DNA from: a virus
DNA: 23,470 bases
Virus record (IMG/VR): IMGVR_UViG_3300030012_000218
Coordinates: 1-23,470 of that record
Strand: one strand, 5' to 3'
Positions 636 to 10,382 of this stretch are shown here, piece by piece. Each line of letters opens with the position of its first letter. Positions within the stretch are counted from its first letter, which is position 1. The notes under the pieces were generated by a model. The model saw nothing but the letters and a program-made list of their open reading frames with translations. It searched no databases and had not been told where the DNA came from. A program made the translations under genes and the position numbers.

Positions 636-799
636 TTTACTACCTCCACATCTGTATTGAGATCTTTGATATCTCGTTCTTCCTGTAATGATAACCACTG
701 TGCTTCTGCTCTATATGCTTCAGCAACTTCATGATCTCCTTCTAGTTCAGCATACTTTGCTTTATCTAGCATTTCGTTTATCTTATCTTGATAGTCCAT
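632..799 (-). CDS. small hypothetical protein, 55 aa, leftward group
   Basis: The frame begins MDYQDKINEMLDKAKY and ends EVVK before TGA at 634-632. A textbook ribosome site (AAGGAGG) lies seven bases before the ATG. The start overlaps the stop of the gene upstream (TAATG) and the stop overlaps the start of the gene downstream (ATGA), so all three complete genes are probably translationally coupled. The protein is acidic and almost entirely helix-forming (alternating Glu, Ala, Leu, Lys), consistent with one long helix or a small coiled coil. Family unknown to me. The strong start signal and tight packing make it a convincing gene despite its size. Confidence 0.75.
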   Translation of the reverse strand: MDYQDKINEMLDKAKYAELEGDHEVAEAYRAEAQWLSLQEERDIKDLNTDVEVVK

Positions 800-1044
800 T
801 ATTTGACCTCCTTCATTCTGATACCTATATCCATTGTATAGTCTATGTTGTCATCATCCTGTGTTTCTATTGTGATTCCCCATGAATCCCTTGATCCACC
901 TTCTGATACTATTACTCCATCAATTTCTTGATCCTGTAGTGGTCTATCCATGTACCATAAGTCCATGTGATATTTTTCCTTTAACATCTCCTTGATATCC
1001 TCTGCTATCTTAGACATGATTGTATATGAATTATATTTGTTCAT
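799..1044 (-). CDS. small hypothetical protein, 81 aa, leftward group
   Basis: I set the start at the ATG at 1044 (MNKYNSYTIMSK) because AAAGGAG lies six bases upstream; the frame stays open further upstream, but that part runs into the structured divergent region. The TAA stop at 801-799 overlaps the next ATG. The N-terminal half looks helical (residues 10-24, Lys/Glu-rich). The C-terminal half alternates hydrophobic and polar residues as in beta strands (GVIVSE, WGITIE) and has a run of acidic residues (DDDNID). No family recognised. It is the first gene of the leftward group, so its 5' leader lies within the inverted-repeat region. Confidence 0.7.
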   Translation of the reverse strand: MNKYNSYTIMSKIAEDIKEMLKEKYHMDLWYMDRPLQDQEIDGVIVSEGGSRDSWGITIETQDDDNIDYTMDIGIRMKEVK

Positions 1045-1083: not shown

Positions 1084-1192
1084 TTGATAGTTCTTGTCAG
1101 GTGCGACCAGATGATCGTCTTGGATTAGGATAAATAAAAAGCCAGGCATCTTGTTGCACCCCTACCCCTCGTGGGTTGACAAGAACTATCAA
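1084..1192. repeat. large inverted repeat: perfect 16-bp outer arms with a nested imperfect 14-bp stem
   Basis: TTGATAGTTCTTGTCA (1084-1099) is the exact reverse complement of TGACAAGAACTATCAA (1177-1192). Directly inside, GGTGCGACCAGATG (1100-1113) pairs with CATCTTGTTGCACC (1147-1160) with one mismatch and one G-U pair. The loop is 33 bases and there is a 16-base bulge (1161-1176) on the 3' side. Read as DNA, each outer arm presents TGACAAGAACTATCAA pointing outward, one toward each operon, and GGAT/ATCC follows on both sides one base out of register. It could therefore be a pair of divergent promoter or operator sites, or a long RNA hairpin. The pairing is seen; the role is open. Confidence 0.8.
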
Positions 1193-1206
1193 CATCCGTT
1201 TACCAT
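1176..1206 (+). promoter_or_regulatory. possible rightward promoter in the right arm of the inverted repeat
   Basis: TTGACA (1176-1181) is a perfect sigma70 -35 hexamer. The best -10 candidate is TACCAT (1201-1206), matching four of six bases with a long 19-base spacer. The mirror-image arm gives CTGACA pointing leftward, with no clear -10. The weak -10s may mean a phage-specific or activated promoter rather than a plain host one. This is a suggestion only. Confidence 0.2.
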
Positions 1207-1275
1207 AATTGAAAATCCGAGAGAGAGCCTTCGATCCCCTGTAGGACAGTCATCTAGTCCGATAGGCAATAACAA

Positions 1276-1318: not shown

Positions 1319-1386
1319 TACTGTCCGTGCAAACTCGTTACAATTTTTTACTTGACATGGTTACGGAAGCCTTGGTATCTATCGTT

Positions 1387-1773
1387 ATGCCGAGAACACA
1401 GTTATCAAAGAAAGACGCATTAACTTACAAACAAAGACTGCTTGTCGATACTCTCGTAGCTAGTAATTGCACCATAACCGAAGCAAGCCAAAAAGCTGGA
1501 TATGCAAAGGGAGAAGCTGGTAGAGTAATAGCTAGTAGGACACTACGATTGCCAAAGGTACAAGCATACCTTCAACAAGAAGTATCCAACAAGTTAGGAC
1601 TAGGTTCTGTCCACGCATCCTCAACATTACTACACCTTATACAAAATGGTAAGTCTGAGTATGTTAGACTAGAAGCATCAAAGGACCTATTAGATAGGAT
1701 CGGAATGAAAGCTCCTGACAAGGTACAACATTCGCACCACGGAAATGTTAGTATCTCTATAGACCTAGATTAG
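1387..1773 (+). CDS. terS: small terminase subunit (Terminase_2-like)
   Basis: TerS recognises phage DNA and hands it to the large subunit for cutting and packaging. The frame from this ATG gives 128 aa. Residues 7-60 form the typical N-terminal domain: LSKKDALTYKQ, then a helix-turn-helix-like stretch with TEASQKAGYA (31-40), then a helix reaching the LPKVQAYL segment. The middle is helical (LLHLIQNGKSEYVRLEASK). The tail (MKAPDKVQHSH, then alternating Ile/Ser) is the ending commonly seen in small terminases just before the portal-binding strand. The frame is open upstream to about 1291, and an ATG at 1357 is an alternative start. Neither ATG has a clear ribosome site, so the start is uncertain, but the domain begins after 1387. 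It lies about 1.7 kb from terL, separated by a run of small genes. Confidence 0.75.
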   Translation: MPRTQLSKKDALTYKQRLLVDTLVASNCTITEASQKAGYAKGEAGRVIASRTLRLPKVQAYLQQEVSNKLGLGSVHASSTLLHLIQNGKSEYVRLEASKDLLDRIGMKAPDKVQHSHHGNVSISIDLD

Positions 1774-10104: not shown

Positions 10105-10353
10105 ATGGCATACGCAACTTCAAATCCAATTAAGAAAATCTCTCAAATGGGAGATAGTAATTCCTTATGGTACTACTCTGACGGAGATGCCATAGGAACT
10201 ATTGATGATGCAGATTACTTTTTATCAGCAACAGGCGACTTAAATGCTGGTGATGTAATTATTGTAAACAGTGGTGGATCAAATGGTGTAGTAGATATTT
10301 TAATAGTATCAGCTGCTTCATCCTCTACAGTAACAACTGCATTATTATCATAA
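10105..10353 (+). CDS. small capsid-linked protein, possible decoration protein
   Basis: The 82-aa protein begins MAYATSNPIKKISQ and contains LWYYSDGDAIGTID followed by the DADYF segment, GDVIIVNSGG and Ser/Thr/Val-rich strands to its end. The 'MAYATSNP' start and the 'SLW.Y...D....ID.ADYF' core are familiar from small proteins directly after capsid genes in marine phages, thought to be head decoration or capsid-stabilising proteins. It is nearly all beta, with no membrane segment. It follows the capsid stop at once, with GGAGAG before its ATG, which suggests co-expression in similar amounts. The function is inferred from place, size and style. Confidence 0.65.
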   Translation: MAYATSNPIKKISQMGDSNSLWYYSDGDAIGTIDDADYFLSATGDLNAGDVIIVNSGGSNGVVDILIVSAASSSTVTTALLS

Positions 10354-10360
10354 TGATATT

Positions 10361-10382
10361 GGGGGGATTTATTCCCCCCTTT
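10361..10382 (+). terminator. C/G hairpin between capsid and tail genes (terminator or attenuator)
   Basis: GGGGGGA (10361-10367) pairs perfectly with TCCCCCC (10373-10379) around TTTAT and is followed by only three Ts. The seven-pair stem with six G-C pairs is strong. The short T-run suggests leaky termination or message stabilisation rather than a full stop, since the tail gene ATG follows five bases after the Ts. Confidence 0.6.

Follow-up and report, generated by a model that had tools for sequence, protein, structure and literature searches.

What does a perfect inverted repeat do between two divergent phage operons? The window, meaning the whole stretch of DNA analysed here, is a 23,470-base virus record (G000; 32% GC overall) in which such a repeat lies, as a preliminary description had stated, between divergent operons: small genes run leftward from 1044, and other genes run rightward from 1387. 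The first leftward gene (799 to 1044, minus strand) encodes 81 amino acids without a known family, as judged by gene calls and profile searches. The rightward genes are terS, encoding the terminase small subunit (1387 to 1773, plus strand; PHROG 51 and 2538, Pfam Terminase_2), terL, and those for a head-tail adaptor, the major head protein, and internal virion proteins. The leftward genes of near-complete relatives include DUF932, DUF3310, YqaJ, a sub-threshold Rad52 match, and SSB, and no integrase was recognised among them. We named the leftward operon early because of this gene content, which, together with the rightward structural genes, therefore places the repeat at the early/late operon boundary.

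The closest cultured phage is Pelagibacter phage EXVC031P (Hodr), with TerL 65% and TerS 58% identical; its corresponding intergenic region is L070:19650-19986. A nucleotide search of cultured phages gave no match. A search of host genomes found only nine relatives, of which eight were in MAG contigs and the ninth was in a Roseomonas isolate. Elsewhere in the window, a G9-TATTATA-C5 tract (103 to 127) forms the palindrome GGGGGTATAATACCCCC at the stop of the leftward gene at 117 to 638, and a terminator-like hairpin, TTGGGGGGATTTATTCCCCCCTTT (10346 to 10382), follows the gene at 10105 to 10353.

The inverted repeat and its predicted fold

The two exact 16-bp arms, TTGATAGTTCTTGTCA (1084 to 1099) and TGACAAGAACTATCAA (1177 to 1192), lie 77 nt apart and are fully complementary, as first described. 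Neither arm occurs elsewhere in the window, even when three mismatches are allowed, and the pair is the longest inverted repeat in the window, where no other perfect 16-bp repeat has its arms within 120 nt of each other. About 0.004 such pairs are expected in the whole window from its base composition, and in 200 dinucleotide shuffles the longest repeat was 15 bp (in 3 shuffles) and never 16 bp. The chance of about two in a million that had been put on the repeat was therefore too strong for a whole window of 32% GC, although even so chance explains the repeat poorly.

The region is unusually GC rich, as had been remarked (45% at 1080 to 1196 versus 32% for the window), and its plus-strand minimum-energy fold reaches -48.4 kcal/mol, against -26.5 ± 3.4 for shuffled sequence (z -6.4). 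The arms form helix P1, supported by complementarity, fold, and the alignment of the window's own sequence type, type A. The nested stem already proposed is real: GGTGCGACCAGATG (1100 to 1113) and CATCTTGTTGCACC (1147 to 1160) form P2, with 13 of 14 positions paired, one G-U included; both the fold and the type A alignment support it. However, it directly adjoins the arm on the 5' side only. On the 3' side 16 nt intervene, 15 of which (1161 to 1175) make a third hairpin, P3, predicted by the fold and present in a 3-bp version in the alignment consensus; the predicted shape is therefore a three-way junction of P1, P2, and P3.

The preliminary description thus captured P1 and P2 but overlooked the third stem, an outer closing stem, and the extent of about 180 nt. 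The whole structured element, D1, spans 1051 to 1227 in the rightward RNA sense (z -6.8 on the plus strand and -3.9 on the minus strand), and the covariance model R2 covers 1049 to 1230. The 5' side of its closing stem, CTCCTTTC (1051 to 1058), is the complement of the early gene ribosome-binding site GAAAGGAG and pairs with a GAGAG run in types A and C; the 3' side, GAGAGAGAG (1219 to 1227), contains a GAGAGAG run that is present in all types. In type A the minimum-energy fold has a local hairpin, CCTTTCTGATTTG/CAAATCGAAAGG (1053 to 1081), as an alternative to the closing stem. A second region, D2 (1220 to 1351), is weakly structured in type A and more strongly in types B and C, and is exchanged apart from D1.

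Related elements and cassette exchange

We compared 41 TerS relatives. Most carry distinct sequences, sorted into types A, B, C, and D, upstream of a conserved block, TTTACAATTTTTTACTTGACATGGTTACG...ATCTATCG-ATG. Type A comprises the window and six near relatives in which the structure is kept (L001, L003, L004, L006, L053, and L066). An exact 16-mer search in viral contigs returned 26 stretches, mostly chance or unrelated coding sites (e.g., L049 and L062). Relatives with 87 to 95% identical TerS lack the arms and have unrelated sequence at the site, yet this sequence is still folded (types B and C). Lack of conservation in close relatives had been named as grounds for refutation; the outcome was divided, with the exact arms kept only narrowly but a folded element found in all of the relatives of types A, B, and C that we examined. 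In these three types the element starts at the complement of the early gene ribosome-binding site, stops near the GAGAGAG run, and folds better on the plus strand. In types A and C the fold encloses the ribosome-binding site; in type E relatives it sits apart from this site.

Compensatory changes exceeded controls in type B and in the wider group described below, as expected of a structured RNA with a conserved fold. Type B has seven compensatory pairs, and its shuffle and slide controls were clean; type C has five, and its closing stem, CUCCUUUC/GAGAGAGAG, is as in type A. Type A has one, its members being too uniform for an informative test. The arms need not be perfect: a C-to-G change breaks one P1 pair in four type A members, and P1 of L004 contains a G-U and a mismatch. 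These alignments indicate that structure, not arm sequence, is conserved.

Covariance-model searches gave E-values that are rough, as calibration was short. Over 680 kb the type A model matched type C sequences and, beyond type A itself, no others; these matches cover the full model and are on the plus strand at the orthologous site (E 0.002 to 0.12). Their alignment rests on the closing stem and an AUAAU region, and the interiors are unlike. The model also gives weak matches on type A's own reverse strand because the element is nearly palindromic. The type B model matched a distant locus, L134 (TerS 58% identical), with 61 bits and E about 1e-14 to 2e-14 over 680 kb, and this match retains P1 together with the basal part of the third helix.

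Pairs of closely related phages differ abruptly at the element. Between L002 (type B) and L003 (type A), the left 800 nt are 97% identical and the right flanks 73%, whereas D1 and D2 are 33% and 12% identical, the level of random sequence. L005 and L006 show the same pattern, with a 90% identical flank. Because near-identical flanks stand beside differing D1 regions, D1 has been replaced as a unit. L012 and L014 are 100% identical in D2, 99% in the right flank, and 92% over the left 800 nt, but 50% in D1, with a common closing stem; the D1 swap was therefore independent of D2 there. The element is thus a cassette swapped between closely related phages.

The wider clade holds at least 596 relatives by TerS alignment search. 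Among 37 diverse upstream regions, most contain at least one 200-nt tile that folds well below shuffles (only 16 shuffles per tile). Eight loci (L074, L077, L079, L082, L088, L089, L093, and L116) have in common a larger, covarying RNA of 300 to 380 nt upstream of terS, modular in length, with a conserved GUGUGUG..GGACCCAU core. Compensatory changes occur in 25 of its 65 pairs, and in slid controls the paired fraction falls from 89% to at most 47%. It resembles the window's element in place and folding, a likeness that does not imply a common ancestor.

Other features were seen in this clade. Paired G-tracts (GGGGGGGG-ACACA-GGGGGGGG and variants) lie just upstream of the terS start in L122, L127, L129, L133, L135, L136, L137, and L139. 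In L096, L103, and L108, a hairpin, GGCGAGGCGAAGCCGAGCC, followed by at least eight T directly precedes the TTGACA upstream of terS and is terminator-like on the plus strand. About 600 nt without a clear gene adjoin SSB in the early operon of L159 (7090 to 7715), with a fold z of -1.3 on the first 300 nt.

Strand preference, transcription signals, and competing readings

Pairing had been noted to be slightly better for a rightward transcript, a G-U replacing an A-C; this is right, and it is true of the whole element. The wider region has z -6.0 on the plus strand and -2.8 on the minus strand, and across D1 regions the plus strand has the lower energy in 16 of 16 and the lower z in 14 of 16. 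Among pairs predicted on both strands there are 29 G-T versus 9 A-C cells, and 24 versus 6 when single sites flanked by common pairs are counted, in rows that are related, so that a binomial value on them is not a true probability. This wobble asymmetry is the main evidence for the rightward strand. Plus-sense single-stranded DNA would give the same bias, which therefore separates the strands better than it separates RNA from single-stranded DNA.

The probable terS (late) promoter, TTGACA ... TATCTA (1352 to 1381, plus strand), is conserved in types A to C, in which its -35 block TTGACATGGTTACG is kept. In the window (1352 to 1389) and its orthologues the promoter, TTGACA ... ATCTATCG, runs up to the start codon, which suggests that the terS mRNA is leaderless. 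Promoter scans of the relatives revealed no conserved plus-strand promoter upstream of D1, nor did scans find a leftward promoter to its right. Intrinsic terminators were found at 4 loci on the plus strand and 3 on the minus strand, of 59, without a pattern. Near the GAGAGAG end, types C, D, and E have an extended -10-like element, TGATATAAT or TGCTATAAT, from which transcription would begin beyond D1 and so serve D2 rather than D1; the window has the -10-like CATAAT at this place (1204 to 1209, plus strand), a possible but unproven start.

Several roles for the arms themselves were tried and rejected. As a sigma-70 promoter, the right arm offers TTGACA followed at 17 nt by TTTACC, with CATAAT only at 22, and the left arm offers leftward CTGACA followed by TCGATT, with no good -10 at 16 to 18 nt; promoter scans found no site with 16- to 18-nt spacing from either arm's -35-like hexamer. 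As an operator pair, the arms are altered on the left only in four of seven type A members and are missing from types B and C. A coding reading, in which the leftward open reading frame extends through D1 from a start at 1149, meets a 1-nt deletion in L004 and L006; the frame is broken there, and D1 is therefore not coding.

The alternative of a long structured RNA gains support from the predicted fold and from the relatives with a folded element at the same place. With a probability of roughly 0.7, we consider the repeat to be the central helix of a fast-evolving structured RNA cassette of about 180 nt, read from the rightward strand between the divergent early and late operons of pelagiphage-like (SAR11-type) marine podoviruses. 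Counting against this are the uniformity of type A, the lack of an upstream plus-strand promoter and of a terminator, the identical wobble bias of single-stranded DNA, and the type E fold off the ribosome-binding site.

Its main rival, which we regard as rather unlikely, is a trans-acting structured noncoding RNA upstream of terS (a protein scaffold, host-directed decoy, or packaging-related RNA) without an antisense role. The rightward bias and the position beside terS would suit such an RNA, and so would the large, elaborate RNA of the wider relatives, whose core motif is conserved. However, the interiors of types A, B, and C are unrelated beside nearly identical TerS, which is hard to fit to one fixed protein partner, and no promoter or terminator was found to delimit a separate RNA gene. 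The cassette functions next to flanking genes that are closely related, regardless of its own sequence, and a sequence-specific phage protein encoded at that locus is therefore an unlikely partner for it.

Less probable again is that the leftward early mRNA has a structured leader in which the first gene's ribosome-binding site is hidden, or which is processed by RNase III. The rightward strand is preferred by energy, z, and wobble alike, even though the leftward strand of the window's D1 also beats shuffles; the ribosome-binding site lies within the fold in types A and C but outside it in type E, and the scans gave no leftward promoter from which such a leader could begin.

A DNA element is the weakest candidate and improbable: the place is divergent, promoter bearing, and next to terS, and the early genes read in relatives yielded no recognisable replicase, so that an unusual origin is conceivable, but the twin outward promoters or operators once proposed fail on the missing well-spaced -10 of either arm and on arm sequence not kept in relatives, D1 is unrelated across 87 to 95% identical TerS, which makes a pac site read by TerS (a candidate we rejected) or a fixed operator unlikely, wobble is strand asymmetric, and coding-strand GC skew in Hodr is alike on both sides (0.13 to 0.21).

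Proposed action and comparison with known systems

If the repeat belongs to a structured RNA cassette, selection would retain the fold, with its long closing stem and internal junction, rather than the arm sequence. The element would be a rightward regulatory RNA with its 5' end on the complement of the early operon ribosome-binding site; by position, it would be complementary to any early mRNA leader crossing it. Its likeliest action would be cis-antisense control of early-gene expression. We prefer this because the other strand, the early mRNA leader, travels with the cassette and because the fold starts on the complement of the early ribosome-binding site, although we hold the antisense step by itself to be somewhat less than evenly probable. 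More speculative, and in our estimate unlikely, is that the element is an antisense RNA cassette of an uncatalogued class and that its exchange alters regulatory specificity, much as plasmids fall into incompatibility groups: the RNA of one phage would shut down early genes of any co-infecting phage with the same cassette, a swapped cassette allowing escape.

Phages of SAR11 rank among the most abundant marine viruses, and to our knowledge little is known of their early and late gene timing. A structured RNA at the early/late boundary, in varied forms in the sampled part of this clade, would be a new regulatory layer, and swaps between close relatives possibly mark competition between co-infecting phages.

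The element behaves like a structured regulatory RNA but matches no catalogued RNA family, and we assign it to no named one. Rfam 15 covariance models gave no match at the gathering score in the window and 18 relatives, and none up to E 5 in 950 to 1450 of the window; ARAGORN gave no tRNA or tmRNA match. In open-licence papers we found nothing on such an RNA in pelagiphages. GOLLD and ROOL are large structured noncoding RNAs associated with phages (PMC12286853). The present element shares that association and structured nature but is much smaller, without an Rfam match in the sequences searched and without tRNA neighbours.

The phi29 packaging RNA (pRNA) is likewise a phage RNA with a three-way junction, variable in sequence and kept in fold. 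Phi29, however, uses no small terminase; a pRNA would be expected with a motor that lacks TerS and has a pRNA-dependent ATPase, yet these phages have both TerS and TerL genes, and we rejected this identity. The HK022 put RNA, which acts in processive antitermination, is also structured and lies close to where a long phage operon begins. In the present case, however, the fold is upstream of the probable late promoter, and its sequence lacks the conservation that a contact for host polymerase should have.

Among the closest parallels are the cis-antisense RNAs that control replicons, ColE1 RNAI/RNAII and R1 CopA/CopT, and the phage immunity RNAs P1 c4 and P4 CI RNA. The present element differs in being known from sequence and predicted fold, and in that no integrase or repressor was found in the parts of these phages read. 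It resembles them in being structured and fast diverging and in overlapping the complement of the early ribosome-binding site, the position at which a cis-antisense control RNA meets the leader or ribosome-binding site of the opposite strand; in such systems, as may be the case here, replacing the locus alters the two partners together.
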